Shown piece by piece: positions 18,188-32,446 of a DNA stretch of 64,000 nucleotides; within the stretch, counting starts at the first letter, position 1; the number at the start of each line of letters is the position of its first letter. The notes below the pieces were generated by a model, which made no database searches, had not been told where the DNA came from, and saw only the letters and a program-made list of their open reading frames with translations. The stretch is from Salminus brasiliensis (taxonomy: Eukaryota > Chordata > Actinopteri > Characiformes > Bryconidae). Where the stretch lies: assembly GCF_030463535.1 (NCBI RefSeq), contig NC_132878.1, forward strand, positions 26,298,425 through 26,362,424, in the 5' to 3' direction. The translations under genes were made by a program, and so were the position numbers.

Positions 18188-21100
18188 TTATTTAGGTTTG
18201 ACCCTCTTAGCCCCCTCTCTGTAGTCCTCCTCAGTGAGTCGGTAGCCCCAGTGCTGAAGGGTCTGTCGGACCACTGGAGACACACTGGGGTCATCAAACC
18301 TCCGTCCGGATCGTACTACCTTTGTGATGAGGTTATTCCGCCAACGACCTTTGACCCCAGTGCAGTTGGCCCAGCGGCTAATCTGTCGTACATCATCCTC
18401 CGTACGTCGACCCTGATAAAACCTACGAGAGAGAGCATGAGATCATGTTGATGAGGGCAGATCAATATGATAAAATAATTATGCACAATATATGTTGCTT
18501 ATCTTTTGATATTGGTAAGTATTGTATGTATGAAGGCTTCATTTTTAATTCTGAATGCAATTTTTATTATTAAAACCATTTATTGATTGTGCAATTTACA
18601 TTTTAGGGCTGTTACACACAGAACATGAAGTTTTTCACATCAAAACAATACATACCGGATGTGGTGCAATTTTCTGGGGAGTTTCAGATCAGGCAAAATC
18701 ACAGCAAGCAGACAGGAAAGGAAGCCGTATTTACATGATGCAGAAAAGCTAAAGAGCTAAGGAGCTTTACTGCTTCTTTTAGGAGAGTAAGAAACTTTTT
18801 TCAAAGTTTACTCAAACATTTCAAAAACATTTCAGCTGCTTTTGGAGCACCATGTGATGAGGACAAACTGTCTTTTCTGACATTTATTAGTTGCAGAGAT
18901 AACACCAGAGACATCTCTGTTTGCAAATATAGAACTGGTAGAATACTGGTAAAATACGGTCCCATTTTAGCATGAAAGTTGTTCAAAATAAGTTACAGTC
19001 TCAAGTTTGGGCACTGCTGGTCACATCTTAAAAATGTACAAGGAATTTTAAAACCTAAATAGAAGATAAAAATATTTGACTAAATAGAACTATATCATAC
19101 AAATGTGTACATCTCAGAGCACAATTTCTATTTATTCACTGAATATAACCGATTTAATGCACAATTACTTCTGTACAAGCCACATTACATGCTTTTTTGA
19201 ACATGCTTAATCCAGTACATAACAATCTTTTACACAGTGTTATCAAATCAATGTTTTCAGAAGGGGAGCTCAAACTTTATGCATAAGACTGTATCTATAA
19301 AAAAACTGTTTACATGCCATACACTGACAGAAACCACAAATGTAAGTCAATTAAAGATTATTGAACATCTCCACACAGTTTGAGGTGAGTGTGTGATGAC
19401 TGAGGTGTGATGCTAACTGGTGGGGTTTAAGCTTCAGACACCTAACAAACACGGGTAGTCTTTTAGTCACAGGTAATCTTTTTGTTGAGCTGTTTCTTTA
19501 CTGAGTGGGTGTGTTTCACTCAGGTGAGCGTTACCTGCAGTACCACTGGAACCAGCCGTAAGGGTCCTGGGGTTTTATCCAGCCGCTGCTCTCCCACATC
19601 TCCAAACTGCCGCCACACTTCACCTTATAGGTGTTCACCTGCTCTCTGTATGTCGCTGAAGACACCTGTAGGAGAAATGACACACACTGGGTCACTTGCA
19701 GAGAACGCTAGATCTGTACACCATCAGCCATAACATTAAAACCAGGTGAAGTGAATAACACTGATTATCTGCTTTCCTCAGAGTGCGTTGGTTGCCCAGT
19801 GATACTGCATCAGCAGCAGCTGGAAAAGAGGCGGTGGCTGATTGCAAATGTGTCGGAGGAGGCATGTGTCCTCACCCTCCCAGTGTCAAGAGCATTATGT
19901 GTGATAGGATACTAATGAGTATTTGGATACTCTATTTGACCTATTTAACATTATTTAACAAAATGTCTGCCCTGTTTGTTAATATGCTAACAAGCAATGA
20001 AAGCTAATTAAACTAAAAAATATCTGGTATTGTGATGTGATGAAACAGGGTTGTCTTTTAAGCACTAAGCTAAACATTTTCAATGCACTACAACAGATAA
20101 ACTACACTACATGGACAAAGTATTGGAACACCTGCTCATTCAATGTTTCTTCTAAAATCAAGGGTATTAGCATTAGTATTGGCATTAGTGAGGTCTGGAT
20201 GTTGGATGATCACCACCCCATCTCATCCCCAACTCCCTGAGTCATTGTGCTGGATAGAGCACGAACCATCATTCTAGATAACACAGTTCCACTGCTCAAT
20301 AGCTCAAAACTGGAGGGCTTTATACCCCTAAAGCCCACAACCTGGCATTACACATTGTGTCAATAGGTTCATGTTTATCTGCTCTAGAGGGACTAGATAA
20401 GCTGCATGTGTGCATTTGCACATCTGTGTCAGCAACGGGTGCAAACTAAAGTAGCTGAATGCATTGATTAGTCATCCCTCACAAACTGACGTGAAGTTTG
20501 CTTCATCTCGAAGGCAATGCTAAATCTACAACCCCATCTGCATGTCTGAGCTGATTGTGTGTTTGCAGATCAGCAAAGAGCTCTGTTTAGGGTTGACTGC
20601 ACAAATAATAGAAAAAGAAGGCAAACCCCTTCTTTGGGTTTTCCACACGACTTGGCTTTGACCTCACTAAACTTGCAGCTGCATCAGCCTGTCTGAATGG
20701 CTCAAATGTTCTATGCCCATGTAATTGGTAATAAAAAAAGCTAATAAACTGGCTCTCTGCTAGTGCCAGGTCGTATGGCTGGCATCACTTAATGGGTTAC
20801 AGTGACTACAATGACGTAACTCCAGCAGCAGCTGTCTTGCATAACCTCATTCCTGACATAAAGAACATGATGATCTGAACAGTCTGGCCAAAACTAATTT
20901 ACACAATTGTTGTCTTACGTTAAATGCAATCGATCAACCAAGACATGTTGTCAGAGTCTTGTACTAGGGCTACAAGGCAAATGTAGCTAACGAGCAGTGG
21001 AAGCACTACATGGCATGGCAAGCGTTGCAACACACATTTGTCCATTTTTACAGATAATGCTAATTCTGTTTACATGAGCTTTTTTTTGTTAGCTACATTA

Positions 21101-24100
21101 GCTTTGCAGAACGAGCGAGGGTCCCACAATTGTCGTTTGCCGTGTGAGAGGTAAAGCCCTTTATAATGATCTCTATATTCTGCACAGAAGGCATGACCGC
21201 TGTTAACATCCGGCTGACTGGAAACCAAAACAGTGCCAAACCGGCCTTTTTTTCTGGACAAGCTTGTTCATTCTACTCTCTACTTAATTATTATATAATA
21301 ATAATAATTGAAAAGAATTATAGAATTATTTCATCCCAAAATCAGTGAAAGTGTAGTGTTATCATCAATATTTTGTTTAAATAATGTTCATTACAGGATT
21401 TTACACAGATATGACTCATAGCGTTAGGCAGGTATTGTGAGCGTTGTTCTGCCTGCTTTACCAGAGTTATGTAATGCAGTTAGCAGTGCACAGAGCCCGG
21501 AGTAGGAACGACAGTGATGCTATTCTCCCTACTGCAGGTCAACGAAGTGTTCGCAGTCTTCCTTTGGCCTGTTCTGTATATTAAGTATTAGAAAAACAAA
21601 TATAAATAAAAATGATCTATATTCTTATCCTTATTATTAACAAGAGTAAACATTAAAACAGCAGGTGATCGCACATTATGGCAGAATATTTATACCCCTG
21701 TCTGTCAAAATGACAAAGAGAAAATGCAAACTCTGAAACCGTGTTCTATACATGCAGCACTATTAGAGTTATCACCTCGGCAAGTTTGCTGTTATTTTGT
21801 TGTAACTCTGATTTAGAAGTATCAGCAGCCCTCTGATTATTATTCCTGCTATACATGGTCATGTTCATAGACAAGATACAAGCCTATTAAAAATTGCTTA
21901 ACAACTCCACATGATTGGAGGTGTTGCTAATTGGTGGATCATCAACCTTGTAGCTTGTGTGCATGTCGTGTGCTATTATTCTATTATTATGCTTCAAATG
22001 GCTTGAGGTGGAATTACTTGCTTAAGCCCATTTCACACCAGATGTAATCAATGTGCCACTCGACATACCATGCCGTGAATACGCTTTTACTACACATAAC
22101 GTTTCAACAATAAGCTGTTTGGCACCTGATATTGTAAAGAAAACAGCTAGCTAACAAAATCTAAACAGTAGCTAACATTATGTTTAGTTTAGCAATATAT
22201 GAACAATGGACACTTTTCACATGCATGTTAAATTTTTTCGGCTTTTTTTTTGGGCGCTGGTTTTGACATTCGGACCCTGGCCACCTCATGAGCATCAGAA
22301 CCGTTCACAGATACATTAATAACCATGGCAACCCTTGGGAGCTGTCGCCATAGCAGCAGCAAAACACCTCTCCAGGACCAGTGAGGGGAGGCGCATTCTT
22401 CCTTCACTAATGAGCAGGATCTCTTTCGTCCCTTCAGTAAAGTCATAATTGCGGCGTAGCTGGCAGGGATCAAACCCAGCTTCTGCCGAAACATGATGAT
22501 ACCTGCTTCTCAAGCAAGAGTCTGAGTTTCTTAACAATCGAGTCTGAGTTTTTATTTACTTTTTTACCGGAATGGCTAACACGCACTACTCTGCCCCACA
22601 TATTCCAGCTCCAACACACCCACTCCTCTTCAAGACTGGGCTGTTAATGAGCTGATTAGTTAGATCAGGTGTCAGAACAGTAGGTTGCATCTAACTGGTG
22701 GGTTGCACTGTAGGGCTGACTAGGTTGTGAGGAAGGCACATCAATGCATGCATCGTGGTGTTTTTCTGTGATGACAGAGCAAAATAAAGCTATTTTAGCC
22801 TTTCAGAAGTGGAACCTGTCTTCTTCTATACCACTGTGCAGCTGTTTACACAGGCACACATGTGTAAACAATGGTGGAAGGGACATCTTTTTCTCATAGT
22901 GATAGTTCTGATTACTGTTATTTTGGTATATCAAGAGGTTACTTATCTCAATAAGTAATAAGAGGTTAAAATCACACTTTAGCAAAACGTAACTTGTCGC
23001 TTTCAAACACCAAAAACTTTTACGTAACAGTCCGGACTGTTATATTCACACCTCCACAGTTTACATACACCCAGCCCACTAGCGAAAGCCCTAAGAAATC
23101 TTATTTAGGCAGCTTTACCTATAAATAAACACTATGATAGCAAAACTCTGCGTTCATGTCAGCAGCCATCACTTTGCCAGGTTTGATTTATGCTTGCAGG
23201 TGGTGCTGTACCGTGCTGTTTCTCTTGGAATAACTTTGACAAGCGCAGGATTCTGTTTACTGAAGAGGATCCACATGGCGCGGAACTGGCGTTAACAGCC
23301 AGAATGAGGAGAACGTTGATGAAAAAGTGAACGTACCTTTAACATCTGACCATGACTGTTTCTCAACCACCCCATGGTAAATGAATCCGTTCATGACAGC
23401 AGAGGATTGAATAATACTAAAATATTAGTCATAATATTAATAATATTCTAATTGAACCATCCCAACTTTGTCTAAATGGAAAATTTAGCTTAATTAAAAC
23501 TTAATTTCTTAAAAATATGAGGAAGGTTCTTAAGACAGCATGAACAATTTCACCTGCTTTCTCGCTATTTCCTCTTCATGGCATAAGAGACAGCTGTTTA
23601 TACTGGGAAATTTACATTTTGCTCTTCGTGCACAAAAGGCTCTCAAGTTTTTTGCTTTCTTGGCAGAAGCTTCTTGGGCTGAAAAAGTGAGGAAGGCCTT
23701 TAGAGACAGTGTGTAAACATGGAGGAGAGACTAGGGGGTACAGGCTCTTTGATTTCGCAGGTCACAATGATCACACCACAGTGCTGTTTCAGCATCCTGA
23801 AAGTGAGCGCAGTGGCAACACTATCGCTATTTTGCATCAGGGGAATGTGGAGCCAGCAGTTTTCAAAAACATGCACATGGTTTTATACTTTCATCATATA
23901 CTGTTCTTTAAATGTAATAATTGAATATATCTTTCATACATTCTTCTGTTGTTTTCAAACCAAGCCCGTCCAGCCCTGCCTCCTGATGTGTGCCTGATGT
24001 TGGTACACTGTTGGTAGTTTAATGCAAAACCTTTTCTGATAAAAAAAAAAAGTTACTTTTGGGATACAAAACAGTCTTCAGGATGAATCTGGAAAAATAT

Positions 24101-24974
24101 CAGTCAAGATGACCTTGCTATGGAAACCCAGGAAGATGACTAACAGCATGTTTGACTCGAATTTGGACTACATGAAAAGTCCACTTTAAAACGTTACCCC
24201 GCATTAGTCTTCCTACTCAGTTCTGGCCCTGGAGGGCTTTGGTTCAGTACGGTTTGGTGAGTTCTCTGCTCAAATGCACCTGATTCAACTCATAAGGGAA
24301 TCACAGTATTCAGTTGGCTTGTTTAGAGCAGCAAAATCAACAAACATATCTGGTATAGAAAGAACTGTTTACCCCAACATATTGAAGCACACAACAGAAA
24401 TATAGAATACCATATCACATTTCATGTTTTCCTCAACTCCGGTTAAAAAGGTGGGAGTTATCTGATCCACACATCTAAAGCATAACCCCCCCGCACCCTC
24501 CCCCGTGTAAAGCTTTGTTCTCTTACTTGCACTCATTACTCTACCGGTTCCATGCTCTAGACTCTGGATGTTATGTGATCAGACATTTAGTGTTGCTGGA
24601 CCAAAGCTTTGAAATGGTCTCCCCTAGGAGTTGCATGCCTGTACATCTTTGTCCTTAAATGCATTTTAAAAATCAAATTTTTATCTTTTATTATTTGGAC
24701 CTTGGTTGATTCATAACTCTACAAAGCAATATATGCTAAAATACTGCAATATTGTGTTTTGCAAAACTGTATCAGTTCTACCTAACACAGTATTGCTTTT
24801 TAATGAATAGCTTACCTGCACAAACCCGTGGCAGGCAGTGGTTCATTCTGTGTTGTGTATAAACGCTGACCGCTAGATAACAGTGTCTTCATATCCCACT
24901 GTTCTGCTTGCATAAGAACGTAAACTTTTCTTTTACTCAGATTTTATGCATATGGTCCGGTGATTTATATTTTT

Positions 24975-25061
<87 letters not shown>

Positions 25062-28000
25062 TTTTTTTGCAATATACAGTCTTGCTTACAGTATCACAAT
25101 ATTTTTAACTGTAACCTCTGTATTGTGGTACGAATCATGACACCAGGTTCTTGTCAATACTAGGGATGCACTGATCTGATATTAGTATCGGATATCGGTC
25201 CCGATTTTATCAAAATTAGCTGGATCGGGTATCGGATAATTAGGCCGATCCATGGAACCGATCCTTTTACTTTAATTTGGTGGTGTGAGACTGCACTAAA
25301 TGTGCAAATAAATAAATGACCAATGGCAATTTAGTACATTTATATCTATTTGTTAATTTGTTATTATATAAAGTAATGTTTAAGTCAATCCTGATGCCTT
25401 AAGTCTCTCCCACAAGGTGAGGTATACGGTTTATTAATTCAGCAATGGTATTGGACTGGTATCGAGTATTGACCAACATGTAAAGTTTATGTATCGGTAT
25501 CAGAACTGAAAAAGCTGGATCAGTGCATCCCTAGTCAATACACCAAGATATAAGGAGCACTAAAATATTCTACTCAATATTCTGCTCATTTTAGTTTGAT
25601 GAAATGTAAAATTAAAAGCAACGGCTGATACTGCTTTCTTATGTTTTGCCATTGACCAAACCGCAGTAATTGCAGTGTAGTAGTACCCTTATCCAACCCA
25701 AGTGAGTATGTTTAATTATGACACTCAACGTATACATTCACAGCCAAAAAGCACTCTCACAACAAAGCCGCCCACGCGTCACATCAGAGCAAGACCTCCA
25801 GTTTCTAATGAACATCTGGTGTTGATTAGTGTTGTTCATTTAGAATAAATCAGTGTTAGGTGACTGACCTGTTTATGGATGTCCAGTCCTTGGAGCCAAT
25901 TTTGAGGAAGCTCCTTATACACGTCCTTATAGTGCTGCTCTGTAAGAACACACACAAACACACACATAGACATAGACACAAATTAGAATACAGGCTACAT
26001 AGGCTTGATTTAAATGATTTAGTTTACTTCATATTTGGATAGCTGTTTTTATAGTTATAACAACTTTCGGCTGGCTTGATGCACATGCGTAGAACTGGGT
26101 AGGGAAGATAGGAGCATGTCCCTCCCAATATCCAGCGACTACTGAATTGTCCCTAGCAATATGTTTTATTAAAAATTCTAATACAACAGTCGGTCATTGT
26201 TTATTCACTGTATTTGGTACAAAAGCGCTTAACAGAGCTTGTTCTCTACTATGAGTTCCGCCTGCCTAACCCACATCACTTACAGGACTGACTTTGCCAT
26301 AAGTGCAGGTGGAGAGACAAGGCCACAGGTAAAGTGGAATGGTGACTGAAATCAGTAAATAATAAAAACCTAAATGTCAACATTTTTCTTTTTCAATTAT
26401 TAATGTTTGTTAAGATGTTCTAACATGAAGTACAGAGAGTTAACTGTGATGTTGGTCATAATAAAATGTGTAATTATTGTCTGAGAAGCACACCAACAGA
26501 ACAAAACATTCCCTTTATGAGTCTGTTGGCTGCCATATCTATTAATAAAGGCTCTAGATGACATGAAATTGCAGTCAGATGCAGATTATGAATGCAATAA
26601 GCCTTAGCTTCCAGAGGTCCCCTGTGGACCGCTTTTATGTCCCAACCAATGTTAAAATCAAACCTTGGTTTAATATGATTAGTTATGTTCACTAGGCCAG
26701 AACCAGTTGAAGAGGACGTTTTGTGCAGTATTATTAACAGTACTGCTCAAGTGCATGCTGACAGTTATGCAATGTAATTGCAGGAGGTGAGAGAGTTCTA
26801 TGTGAGAAACAAAGGGTAAAGCAGTGTTGTAAAGTGTTGTACAGACATGTGAGATATAGATAAATGAATGAATGAGACCTTAAGCAGCTTAGTCTCAAAA
26901 ACACAGAAATAACTGAACATGAACAGTTCTTAGTGATTCGTTCTCTACGCTGCTCATGCCCAACTGTTATCCTCCAAGCCATGTCTTAAAGCCCTTCATC
27001 TGCAAACATACACTATGTGTGCAAAAAAGTAATGGGACACCTACACATCACGCCTACAGGAGCTTTTATGATATTCCATTCTAAACCCATAGGCATTAAT
27101 GTTGAGTTGGTCCCCTCTTTGCAGCTCTAACAGCAGGTTGGGAAATCTGCAGTTATTGAGTCAGGAGAGTGTTGGTCACCTTATGCACCTCGGCACTCGA
27201 CGACCCCACTCTGTAACTCTTCATGGCCTGGCACTTAGTGGCTGAGTGGTGGATTATCTAGAAGGGAAGACATTTTACCAACTTTCTTGCTGCAACGACG
27301 GCTCCTATTACAGCACCACGCTGGAATTTAGTGAGCACTTTAGAACCACCCATTCTTTCACTAATGTGTCTAAAAACAGACTGCATGGCTAGGTGCCTAA
27401 TTTTATACACCTGTGGCAATGAGACCCAACTCCTAAATTTAATGATTAAGAGGGTGTTCCCCAATATTATTATCCATATAGTATATGGTTTGGTGCATTT
27501 TTTCTACCAGTGTACTGTGACACTGACATTAACAATATTGCATTGCAATTGTAGCAATATTTTTAGCGATTTTGTAAACTAGAGTAGAAAAGAGTGAAAT
27601 TACTGTTTAGAAGTTTGAAATTAATATAAATCAATATAACAACAATACTAAAATCCAGATTGGTTACAGATAAATATATAAAAGGATTCCAACAGGTCAC
27701 GGGAGGGCAATTCCAGTCATGGAGGGCTGGGTTCCTACACAGTTTTAAAGAGCTTTTCCTGCTTTTCCTGCTTAAGAACACCTGATTCAACTGACAGGTT
27801 GAGTAGATCTGTTCAAGCAGGGAAATCAGCAAACTGTGCTGGACTTGGGCCCCCGTTGCCCATACAGATTAATCCTGAGCACAGTTTTCAAATAATCAGT
27901 AAGAAAAATGGAAGCTGCAAATTTTAAAAAAGCATCGTTACATGAGTTTACAGGCAGGACATGACTCTAAATAAACTCTTAATTACTAAATATAAAATAA

Positions 28001-31000
28001 ATGAATACAAATATAGCACGTGCTTCCAAGGTTTTGGTGGACTTGACCAAACCTTTGGTGTATTTGATCATTATGTCCGTTTTAAAACTTATTTTGTGCT
28101 CTTGTATCCAGGAAATGTGTCTGCTTAACATTTACAACACTGTAAGAATCCCTTCATTGTCACTGTAAGTGAAGAACACAATGAAAAACAGAACAACCAA
28201 GCCATGCTACTTCTAGTTTGTAAGATATCCTTACATTAGCTGCATTTAGGAAGAGTGGGATCATCATGTTATCAGTGCTAACAAATACCATCTGATACTG
28301 AATATATATTTGGAAAATATTGTGATATTACATCTTATCCATAAAGCCCAGCAGTAGAGCTTTTCTAAACAAGCAGTCCTCCAAATCTTTCTCTGCTCTG
28401 CGTGGTCTTGCCAAAGCAGCGAGCAAATGTTTATTTGCTGCTCACTGGTGATGCTGGAGTAGATGGGTCTGAAGTAGGTGCCCCCAAAACTGCCCGCACG
28501 CAACACCTCCTCAGGACTCATATTGGGACGGAATTCTGGGTGATCTAAAAAAGCAAGAGGACACAAAAATGTAATTAACCTTCAGAGATTTAAGCGATAG
28601 CATAACTTTATATAATGTAGTTCATAGAAATTAGCTCATAGGCGCAACATTTGTCAGGTTCTAAACTTTCAATTAAGACCACATTAGCAAAAAATACAGT
28701 AAATATAAGTAGGTATAATAAAATATAATATAATAAAAAAAAATAGTAAACATAGTATACTAATGATTATTGATTAATCATTAATAAAGAACTCTGTATC
28801 AAAGGCATATCGTTATATATTAAGTCCTGAATATTGCATGTACAATAATAAATGTCATTGATTCATTTATAATCAATGTTCAATGTGAACACAAGTTGAT
28901 ACATTACAGAGTGTAATACAGTGAAGTGAAGATTATGGGCAGCAGAGTGGAACTCTTCTGTGGCACTTCACTCGAGTTTAACAACATTGGGAGTGAAAAC
29001 GTACGTGATTTTAGTACAAAGTAGCACAATCAGCAAAGCAAAGATGGTAATTATGCTTTCCTTTCAGGATACAGATAGAATTTCTCATGCTCTTGTATAG
29101 TCATATCTTCATTATTGTAGTGCCTAATATACATGTCTTAGTCATGGGGCTATGACACGTGACATGGGGCTATGAAGTTGGTCCAGAATGTGGCAGCTCG
29201 GGTGCTTATTGGGACCGAAAGAAGAGAGCATATTATACCAGTACTGGCTTTACTGCATTGGCTACCTGTTGCTGTTAGGGTAAAGTTTACAATTCCGGTG
29301 TTAACATACCAGGTGGTGCATGCAATATATCTCTGAGCTAATAGTATTCAAATATTAGGACACTGAGGTCCTCTACTCAAGGGCTTATAGTAGTCCCTAG
29401 GTGATTGGGCCTTTGCAGTATGTACTCTAAAGCTTTGGAAAAGTCTGGAAATTCATTAGACTTGCTGGATCTTAGTTGTTACCCTAAGACTTATTTGTAT
29501 GTTGTAACGTTTGAGGTTGGTCACAGCTAGTCGTTCTGTTAATGTTGTTGTGGATGAGGTGGTATTGTCTGTTTTTTTATTGTGTTCATGTATTTTGTTT
29601 AAAATGTTTACTTACAATATTCTGGGAGAGTATTTTGTACATGATTTAGGACTAAAAAAGCTGTTGGCTGTTAATGGTGGGGATGCCGTGTCATGTTTAA
29701 CAAGATTTTTATTGTTTTTGTGTGTGTGTAAAAAGTCCAGACTTTTACCTGTAAAAGCAGCCCAGTAATGTCCAGGATTTTGTGAGGCTTCGTAAAAGCT
29801 AAGCGTAAAGTGCTGACACATACCTTCAAAAACAAGTTGTCCTTTTTTGTTTCTTTTCAATTCTGAGGCACTTATGGTTTCATCAGAATGCGCCATGTTA
29901 TCATCCTGGGTGATCTTGTGCGCAGAGCCTTGTTTCTTCTCATTAGCCTTCTCCTTCAATTCCTTCTTTCCTCCAGTCAATCGGGATACAGCTCTATGCC
30001 TGGTAGCTAAAAAAAGATCAATAGCACGACAAATAAAAAAATAAAAATAAGAAATTAAATAAAAAAGGCAGATTCGAAATTGTATAACCCTGAAAAACAT
30101 GCCAGGGTCGGTGTAAACTCCTCCTATGTGAGAATGCTCTGTAAGAATTTCAAAGCCAAGTGCTCCATCCAGAACGCAGAGGTTCTAGTAACTCTGTTTT
30201 GGTGAAGAAGGGCCTTCAAAAGAGCCCAATGACAAAAATCATTATCAGTTAAATCTTCAGGTCCTGGAGACTGCTTTCAAAGGGATACTTTGCTCTGCCA
30301 TCTTAGCATGGTGTTCATAATGACACTCTTTTGGAAGTTGGAGGAGGCTTTCATGTGGTATCAAACAGGGTGAAAGCAAAACAGCGCAGCTATCGATTTT
30401 CATCTTGGACCGTTAAATCTGGCAAAAGCTTTTCATACTTCAGACAACTGTTCTTTCTCTCTTCTTCTCTTTCTCTCTCTCTCACTAACTTTTAGAGAGA
30501 GTAATGATTTTCATGCAAAAGTCTGAGAAGTGTCTCTACAAAGAACCCAATGCTGCAGGTTCAACTGCAGCACTGCAGACCAAGTCACAGATCAGCACAG
30601 TCTCAGACCGAGTCTCAGACGGATACCTAACAAGCGATTAATGTTCATCAGCCAGCTAAAATTATGGTTTCAACATCAGGTAAAAATAAACCAATTAGGC
30701 TGGATAAAGTTTCAGTGTCAGGACAAAACTTAAGCTAACAATCTATTAAAAGTTAGTTAGCAAGATCTGAAGTCTTAGTGAGGTAGCTAATAATAATGGC
30801 AGATATGTGCAAAATTTAAAGTCCGGGTAGAAGTTAACCAACTAGCTAGAAAGCTACCAAAATTAGCTGAAGTGTCTGTTGGGTAGCTCACATTAACATT
30901 CAGTACAGTGTAGTAAGTTACAGTAAAGTAAACCACCTACAGGTTAAGTACCTGTATATGATATAAAGGGTAAACTTAAACTTAAGGGTATTGATTACAT

Positions 31001-32226
31001 TTGTAACTACATTATCTAGTGTACAGGTTATGCATGATATTCTACATATACATTAGCTGCTTTGCAAACCAAAACAGTTAAAAAGTGTTTAAACTTTTTA
31101 AAACTTAATGCCCTCAAGAGTTTTTGGCTTATTCCAGAAGATACAGGTGGCAACCAATCTGGGTATGGTTTACTTCACAGCTGCCTGACCAAAGTGTCCT
31201 AGACATAGGAGACGATTATGACCAACAACAGTCTAGGCAGGTACAGATTGAACCCAGCTCCCTTGAGGAATATTGGCCTTTTACATTTGCATGCTGCTGA
31301 TATTCCCAACATGCAGACCTGGAGGAGGACCATAAGGCATATGGTGCCTTTTGGGATAGGACCGTCACCAACCCACTGAACCGTGGGATATATAGCTAGC
31401 TACTTTCAACACTACTTTAATGAGGTTTTGGGGGACAGGGTGTGGTCAGTGTTCAGTCTCATGCAATGTGCTTTTCCAAGTTTAGGAAATAGGGCACACT
31501 TGGAACTGACCAGAAAAGGCAAGAAGGCACAGAGAGGCATTAGCACCCACATATTTAAAGATTATTTAACCGCATCTGATATAAATCAGAAATGACATAA
31601 AAAAGCAATAAACTGAGCACATTAAGGACCTGTGTAGGCTTGATTTAAAGTGGAATTGGGCTTTTTATGATTTTAGTAGTAGTACCTGTTTTTGCTGCTG
31701 TAGTGAAGCTGCATTTCATCACAGCGAGCAGAATTGAGTCCATGGCGTCCAAACTGTCTCTGAATCTTTCTGTCTCATTTACACTTTCTCTGCTCACTGA
31801 CTCTTTATCTGACGTCCTTCTCAAAATCACACTCCTTTTTTTACCCTCTTCCTCACTCACACACAAAAACTTGAACAAAAGACATGCCGAATGAGAAAGA
31901 AACGTCGGGTTTATAGAGAGGACACTGAGTCGGTTCCCGTACAGAAGTCCGAATCCTCTTTCGGTTCATCCTCAGTGTCTCAGCATCTCAGTTACTGGCC
32001 TAATTCAGACGGCAGCCAAGTTTCTTCAGTGAAACACTAAACGTGAATCGCTCTGTTACTGAAACCGCCAACGTTAATGCAACTTACCGGCGGAATGCTG
32101 AGCTGTAGCACCGCGTTTCTCTTTCTTTTTCTGCTCTGTAGTTTTAGTTTTAGGTTTCTTTCTTGGAGAGCTTTCCTCGTCTCCCTCGCTGGACTTCCTT
32201 TTAGCTTTCCTACCGGCCGTTTCCAT
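18188..32226 (-). CDS. Conserved uncharacterised protein, six exons, complete
   Basis: Coding exons in transcript order: 32226-32088, 30006-29824, 28544-28446, 25939-25869, 19665-19535 and 18422-18188. All are GT-AG and phase-compatible, giving 858 bp (285 aa plus stop). Residues 1-45 are rich in Lys and Arg (SPRKKPKTKTTEQKKKEKR), which suggests a nuclear or nucleic-acid-binding protein. Residues 47-107 are a charged linker. From about 108 the sequence becomes highly ordered: DHPEFRPNMSPEEVLRAGSF, GGTYFRPIYSS, LPQNWLQGLD, KVKCGGSLEMWESSGWI, QDPYGWFQWYCRFYQGRR, ISRWANC, GRWRNNLITKV, FDDPSVSPVVRQTLQHWGY, LTEEDY. These read as a family signature, with many invariant-looking Trp, Gly and Arg residues. 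I recall similar unnamed proteins in fungi and plants but can give no function and no named domain. No signal peptide or membrane segment is present. Confidence in the exon model is high; the function is unknown. Confidence 0.9.
19380..19920. repeat. Repeat fragments flanking exon 5 of the uncharacterised gene
   Basis: About 19390-19450 and 19780-19910 match the repeat seen at 2200-2600 (gctaactggtggggt; gcatcagcagcag; ggcggtggctg; tcggaggaggcatgtgtcctcaccctcccagtgtc). About 19715-19770 carries one end of the Tc1-like family found at 43630 and 51480 (caccatcagccataacatta, gtgaataacactgat). Exon 5 at 19535-19665 is intact between them. Confidence 0.55.
20103..20480. mobile_element. Tc1-like MITE, copy B
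   Basis: Left end tacactacatggacaaagtattggaacacc, then ggatgttggatgatcaccacc, cctggcattacacattgtg and a tail tttgcacatctgtgtcagcaac. Same family as 16389-16650 but longer. The right inverted end is missing, so it is truncated. Confidence 0.7.
20500..24950. other. Intron of the uncharacterised gene, AT-rich, repeat-derived
   Basis: No exon-like frames on either strand. A tRNA-like/SINE-like fragment lies near 22250-22490 (box B-like gggatcaaac on the plus strand). About 24215-24305 holds a copy of a repeat that recurs at 27700-27850 and 35340-35470 (ctggccctggagggc .. cacctgattcaact). A weak copy of the 2200-type repeat is near 21910-21960. Confidence 0.5.
24978..25068. repeat. (TA)n followed by a poly(T) tract
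   Basis: Uninterrupted TA dinucleotides to about 25044, then 25 T residues. The Tyr-Ile open frames here are artefacts. Confidence 0.97.
25161..25533. mobile_element. hAT-type MITE with intact ends and target-site duplication
   Basis: Perfect 16-bp terminal inverted repeats (tagggatgcactgatc at 25161-25176 and its reverse complement at 25518-25533) are flanked by an 8-bp direct repeat, gtcaatac, at 25153-25160 and 25534-25541. The 8-bp duplication and the TAGGGATGCA-type ends are diagnostic of hAT elements. The 373-bp body has no coding capacity. Perfect ends suggest a fairly recent insertion into this intron. Confidence 0.92.
27009..27485 (-). mobile_element. Internally deleted Tc1-like transposon
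   Basis: The ends are tacactatgtgtgcaaaaaag at 27009 and tatccatatagtata at 27471-27485. On the minus strand near 27330-27260 a transposase N-terminal piece remains (VLTKFQRGAVIGA). The plus strand near 27194-27245 retains a second conserved block (cactcgacgaccccactctg). Most of the transposase is gone. Confidence 0.7.
29070..29340 (+). mobile_element. LINE 3' coding fragment
   Basis: An open stretch from about 29181 reads VQNVAARVLIGTERREHIIP, then VLALLHWLPV, then LTYQVVHAIYL before a stop. This is the conserved C-terminal segment after the reverse-transcriptase domain of L2/Rex1-type elements. It lies in intron 2 of the uncharacterised gene in antisense orientation. Confidence 0.8.
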
Positions 32227-32435: not shown

Positions 32436-32446
32436 GCGCATGCGCA
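32436..32446. promoter_or_regulatory. NRF1-type palindrome upstream of the uncharacterised gene
   Basis: gcgcatgcgca matches the NRF1 consensus core and lies about 210 bp upstream of the ATG at 32226, within a CpG-containing block (31960-32460). This is typical of a TATA-less housekeeping promoter. Binding is inferred. Confidence 0.5.

Follow-up and report, generated by a model that had tools for sequence, protein, structure and literature searches.

DNA photolyase (PF00875/PF03441) is the described system against which the gene discussed here is set, and the PF00875 photolyases are taken here to be mostly of the cyclobutane pyrimidine dimer (CPD) type. Passages of PMC7074977 place the R. sphaeroides photolyase gene phrA in the singlet-oxygen RpoE regulon together with cfaS and the fasciclin gene RSP_1409, and passages of PMC11417400 report that light-responsive operons often contain RudS (TudS-DUF1722). 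The window is a 64,000-nucleotide stretch of the Salminus brasiliensis genome (NC_132878.1, positions 26,298,425 to 26,362,424). It holds a six-exon gene on the minus strand (32226 to 18188), which on sequence similarity is the orthologue of the uncharacterised gene zgc:113208. The family is tentatively proposed to be a photodamage-defence protein, most likely handling photodamaged nucleic acid, in the slot that is filled elsewhere by PF00875 photolyase. The near exclusion of PF00875, the bacterial gene neighbours, the spread in phages and the nuclear fusions together suggest, each indirectly, a defence against photodamage, for which nucleic acid would be the simplest site of action.

Photolyase and gene neighbours in bacterial carriers

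In the genomes sampled, the family and PF00875 photolyase come close to mutual exclusion. The samples bear the group names of their centre loci, each centre genome is a carrier by choice, and genome completeness is not stated. The Pelagibacterales sample (order of G534) has the family in 27 of 217 genomes and PF00875 in 164 with no overlap, so that PF00875 is found in 0/27 carriers and 164/190 non-carriers (Fisher p 4.7e-20). In the Alphaproteobacteria sample (class of G527) the corresponding totals are 42/385 and 227/385, with PF00875 in 3/42 carriers and 224/343 non-carriers (Fisher p 1.2e-13). The Gammaproteobacteria sample (class of G001) again has no overlap; the family occurs in 7/229 and PF00875 in 109/229, or 0/7 carriers against 109/222 non-carriers (Fisher p 0.015). 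Without the centre genomes the carriers number 26, 41 and 6 respectively. Four genomes are common to the first two samples; each of the four has PF00875 and does not have the family.

PF04244 is taken here to be the prokaryotic iron-sulphur (FeS)-type photolyase family. Of the 11 Pelagibacterales carriers tested, 10 match it with E<=0.001 and 9 exceed the cut-off, a rate that covers carriers only; these carriers therefore probably meet light. Four SAR11 loci have AG-... single-cell names, which may belong to GORG-Tropics. Passages of PMC8931226 describe the GORG-Tropics set as tropical and subtropical surface ocean. As a separate observation, the tested SAR11 carriers are mostly PF04244-positive and PF00875-negative, which hints at two photorepair types within SAR11.

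A search of prokaryotic genomes with a mixed alignment gave at least 584 confirmed loci (of at least 591 stretches), of which 80 were kept. The loci include Bacteroidota, Patescibacteria, Proteobacteria with SAR11, and one archaeal metagenome-assembled genome. The gene falls in one BLAST cluster in 75/80 kept loci. TspO is present in 7/75, all seven from Patescibacteria, and lies at most three genes away in six. Neighbours at +-1/+-2 were scanned in loci L030-L090 (150 of 151 eligible proteins, 115-520 residues), a range that excludes the 19 marine-type loci L011-L029 and three near-duplicate SAR11 loci. TspO is the commonest of the 134 families found (5 proteins), followed by NmrA-type (4), DUF1295 and DoxX (3 each), and DUF2177, lipocalin, DUF1722 and DUF523 (2-thiour_desulf) (2 each). 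A control at +-3/+-4 (104 proteins, 140-480 residues) gave 130 families, and TspO is not one of the 25 listed; this control is weak, singletons may be hidden and its narrower length limit drops some TspO.

The gene is also found in 49 plasmid records, of which six were opened. Plasmids of Rhizobium lentis, R. etli and Sinorhizobium medicae have the order fasciclin-DUF378-TspO-gene with TspO directly upstream. The Mesorhizobium plasmid has the gene after TspO, beside a sigma-70-family factor, an anti-sigma factor and fasciclin; the S. meliloti pSymA record is without annotation. Among alphaproteobacterial carriers, 17/20 gave neighbours, and 86/89 proteins were scanned with three long ones left out. 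They yielded 104 families, including NAD_binding_8 (5), OmpW (3), lipocalin (3), DAO (3) and CMAS (2). Photo-oxidative-stress neighbours thus recur in Patescibacteria and Alphaproteobacteria, and several are induced by light or singlet oxygen elsewhere. A Chlamydomonas singlet-oxygen expression table lists DUF1295 and DUF2177 genes (in passages of PMC4067076), and an S. meliloti swarming expression table co-lists nex18, SMa1078 and tspO (in passages of PMC2848241). Regular expressions for photolyase as an operon neighbour gave no convincing match over the 80 loci, and two matches of one pattern were judged spurious by eye. Because such expressions are insensitive, this null is no evidence of absence; the TspO pattern caught 1 locus against 7 by BLAST clusters, and the DUF523 pattern missed copies found with Pfam.

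Spread of the family in phages and eukaryotes

The preliminary description of the gene had mentioned relatives in fungi and plants and missed those in bacteria and phages. A tblastn search finds the family in 15/50,697 phage records, all below 60% identity, seven of them with at least 80% query coverage. Examples are the Flavobacterium phage immuto, Vibrio pVa-21 and Cobetia Carin-5, and partial matches occur in BONAISHI and Yersinia YerA41. IMG/VR adds 105 confirmed loci, of which 80 were kept. An earlier scan of prokaryotic contigs with eukaryote-type patterns had given no match. The family is also present in animals and protists. The claim of an ancient protein holds, with a wider reach than was thought. 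No fungus or plant is named among the best 120 matches in each of three listings, where most entries are nameless. No common pattern emerges from the phage neighbourhoods; in some phages the gene lies near ribonucleotide reductase, thymidylate synthase, dUTPase or dCTP deaminase. In 18/72 viral loci of the family's BLAST cluster (L097-L142) there is also a short open reading frame (61-89 residues, GW.FD-type motif) up to about 1.9 kb downstream. BLAST ties this frame to the cluster, and it is either a recurrent small phage neighbour or a chance similarity.

In a quick unrooted tree of 71 rows, a bacterial type that takes in some viral rows is separated from a second type (support 99). Within the second type, marine bacteria and phages (90) stand against eukaryotes, intronless metagenomic members and two long phage rows (83). 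A giant-virus origin of the intronless metagenomic members is not supported; none of the five loci found is evidently giant-virus. The TFIIS-N/Med26 domain PF08711 is fused in 5/10 proteins of a first scan (P0059, P0066, P0078, P0085, P0092), which were picked partly for their TFIIS-N label, and in 2/10 of a second set (P0278, P0288). In the second set DUF5824 (PF19141) is N-terminal in 4/10, all metagenomic (P0254, P0266, P0274, P0276). DUF5824 is presumably a giant-virus domain family; a literature search for it found nothing. The nuclear role suggested earlier is indirectly supported for eukaryotes by the TFIIS-N/Med26 fusions, which occur only in some members.

A protein search with the window protein (E<=0.001) returned 2645 proteins, and names were read from the best 120. 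P0001, from Salminus brasiliensis itself, is 100% identical over 84% of the query; its N-terminus is longer than and different from that of the window model, and its first exon is probably wrong. The unnamed protein P0002 is 80% identical over 100% of the query and comes from a 1.3-kb contig, which is perhaps a transcript. A dozen cypriniform zgc:113208 members are 63-68% identical over 92-100% of the query. By our taxonomic reading, the vertebrates named among these 120 are ray-finned fish, lungfish, coelacanth and salamanders, and no amniote, frog or shark is named there. The suggested loss in some vertebrate lineages agrees with a patchy record, seen only in the best 120 of 2645. The UniRef name of the Phallusia protein P0065, Serine/threonine-protein kinase SMG1, was probably wrongly transferred; this 230-residue protein aligns with the family over most of its length. 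Searches of the literature found no paper on zgc:113208. None of the papers listed for the motif DPYGWFQWY contains it, and those listed for 113208 with zebrafish look unrelated, judged by title.

The conserved domain and the gene in the window

Twenty-four aligned members, the majority of them animals ranging from fish to cnidarians, share a near-gapless domain of some 178 residues, which follows a variable tail. Fish and corals are about 70% identical in this domain. The strong constraint read earlier from the C-terminal part is borne out by 21 invariant columns in 93 aligned members (alignment A5), within a conserved domain that runs from F.P..TP to RQ..LHW.Y. The window protein keeps all 21: P114, P118, G125, F127, G129, Y131, N175, W188, W193, D198, G201, W205, Y206, G212, R214, D218, Q221, R224, Q261, H265 and W266. 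The 59 rows of alignment A2 include five divergent ones from phage records, which A5 does not contain, and 16 columns of A2 are invariant. An hmmscan of the window protein against Pfam (E<=1) gave no family, so that PF00875, PF03441 and PF08711 are unmatched. Sequence searches of the PDB by phmmer and by profile gave nothing significant (best E 0.94 and 0.42). The view that the protein belongs to no named family thus stands; no well-characterised family was matched, and homologues exist far beyond close fish relatives.

The structure prediction and fold search that had been recommended gave an AlphaFold model of an orthologue with a predicted local distance difference test (pLDDT) score of 95.5, for which Foldseek found no PDB match. 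No photolyase chain is among the Foldseek or VIA-align rows listed, although absence from such lists does not exclude a photolyase fold. On the best explanation, the window protein would be a soluble single-domain member of an unnamed family, with a predicted fold for which Foldseek gives no PDB match. A domain shared by fish, corals, bacteria and phages is without a Pfam match, a solved relative or, as far as the literature searches go, a paper.

The complete gene described earlier is confirmed, with its start, its end and the quoted motifs in the translation. The six exons splice into 858 nt, a stop-free frame of 285 codons plus TAA, and all five introns have GT donors and AG acceptors. Exon 1 (32088..32226, minus strand, as are all six) carries the ATG and the Lys-rich N-terminus (residues 1-46), and is backed by the matching N-terminus of P0002. 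Exon 2 (29824..30006) runs to residue 107 and encodes the remainder of the basic, low-complexity tail. The conserved domain begins in exon 3 (28446..28544, residues 108-140) with F.PN..P and GSFGGTYFRPI. It continues through KELP.NWL.GLDI in exon 4 (25869..25939, residues 141-164) and KCGGSLEMWESSGWI and DPYGWFQWYC in exon 5 (19535..19665, residues 165-207). Exon 6 (18188..18422, residues 208-285 and TAA) contains GRR..DD.RQI.RW, GRWRNNLI and RQTLQHWGY. Two back-translated motif patterns have one match each in the window and none in 100 shuffles. That the gene is real is settled by its homology to P0001 and P0002. A search of the 1.07-Gb own genome with the 178-residue domain gave four matches, all exons of this gene, which is thus single copy by domain search. 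The palindrome GCGCATGCGC (32436..32445, plus strand) lies 210 bases 5' of the ATG and occurs once in the window against none in 100 shuffles. It is taken, as in the preliminary description, to be an NRF1-type site. The intron between exons 4 and 5 also contains a TA-rich simple repeat with an adjoining homopolymer run (24964-25085) that gives long YIYI frames.

Proposed function and comparison with known systems

The proposed family protein would defend cells against light damage, either ultraviolet (UV) or photo-oxidative, most likely through the handling of photodamaged nucleic acid. In carrier genomes it would occupy the slot of PF00875 photolyase. The basic tail would put the protein in the nucleus in animals, and the TFIIS-N domain would do so in other eukaryotes, possibly close to RNA polymerase II during elongation. 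Among the conserved residues, Trp, Arg, Asp and Gln may form the working surface, and the chemistry could be repair, recognition or quenching.

Several observations weigh against this proposal, starting with the carrier-only PF04244 rate. The p values overstate independence because the counting unit is the genome and not the evolutionary event, and no phylogenetic correction was made; the carriers may belong to a small number of clades in which photolyase was lost for some other reason. Three alphaproteobacterial genomes have both the family and PF00875: G535, G648 and G656 (partial match). The family is in 1/295 genomes of the class of G003 (Sphingobacterium), the centre itself, which has PF00875, as does a second Sphingobacterium genome. 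PF00875 is also in 1/8 further carriers taken from the loci. Among the other alphaproteobacterial carriers tested, PF04244 is in 0/10, and these could therefore be dark-living. A light-related gene is present in few of the 16 bacterial loci read by eye (11 + 5), and in Phaeobacter a replication gene precedes the family gene. Acid and nutrient stress induce nex18 (passages of PMC2651895 and PMC2976971), so the rhizobial operon can also be read as one of general stress. Zebrafish carries zgc:113208 together with several photolyases, so the exclusion would not hold in fish. A paper on the light response of zebrafish does not mention zgc:113208 in its main text.

The main threat is confounding by lineage or niche, in which a role unrelated to light is found in lineages that happen to be without PF00875, such as deep-water or sediment clades. 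Deep-water photolyase loss is the confounder to fear, since passages of PMC4354383 describe it in clades of Thaumarchaeota. Carriers are sparse and many are Patescibacteria, five of which were inspected and have genomes of 0.6-0.9 Mb; this agrees with confounding, as do the uncorrected comparison and the lack of PF04244 in the ten non-SAR11 alphaproteobacterial carriers. However, the exclusion repeats in Gammaproteobacteria, in Alphaproteobacteria and within one order, most tested SAR11 carriers match PF04244, and light-stress neighbours recur in two groups. Confounding is therefore considered somewhat unlikely. A quencher or ligand binder of the singlet-oxygen response (e.g. of tetrapyrroles with TspO), with no contact with nucleic acid, would suit the rank of TspO among the 150 neighbours, its place directly upstream in rhizobia and the dense conserved Trp and Tyr. 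Such a role, which is improbable, would not lead one to expect the phage presence, the eukaryotic TFIIS-N fusion or the mutual exclusion with a DNA repair enzyme. Slightly less probable again is a eukaryotic transcription or chromatin factor that derives from a nucleic-acid-binding domain of phages or bacteria and has no particular tie to damage. It accords with the TFIIS-N fusions, the basic tail and the NRF1-type site but leaves the bacterial neighbourhoods and the photolyase exclusion unexplained.

A bolder form of the photodamage proposal is rather doubtful. It would make this small new-fold protein a photolyase-independent route for UV photoproducts, standing in for CPD photolyase in some members of SAR11 and in other bacteria. 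The protein would be carried by phages, would act as a nuclear photodamage factor in fish, salamanders and invertebrates (tethered to polymerase II in some lineages), and would apparently have been lost in amniotes. If the exclusion reflects replacement, sunlight damage in abundant ocean bacteria is repaired or tolerated along a route not yet known; zebrafish kin also have the protein and allow it to be tested. The interpretation in the preliminary description is, as a whole, partly supported.

Among known systems, zgc:113208 is the same gene, with no difference from the window gene. TFIIS N-terminal/Med26 (PF08711) is a separate domain, absent from the window protein and fused N-terminally in some eukaryotic relatives. 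DUF5824 (PF19141) is likewise separate and function-less, and is an N-terminal fusion in four metagenomic relatives. DNA photolyase (PF00875/PF03441) differs in that the window protein has no sequence match to it and no photolyase is among the fold matches listed. The two are alike in the light-stress slot proposed for both, and in the sampled genomes the presence of one nearly excludes the other.

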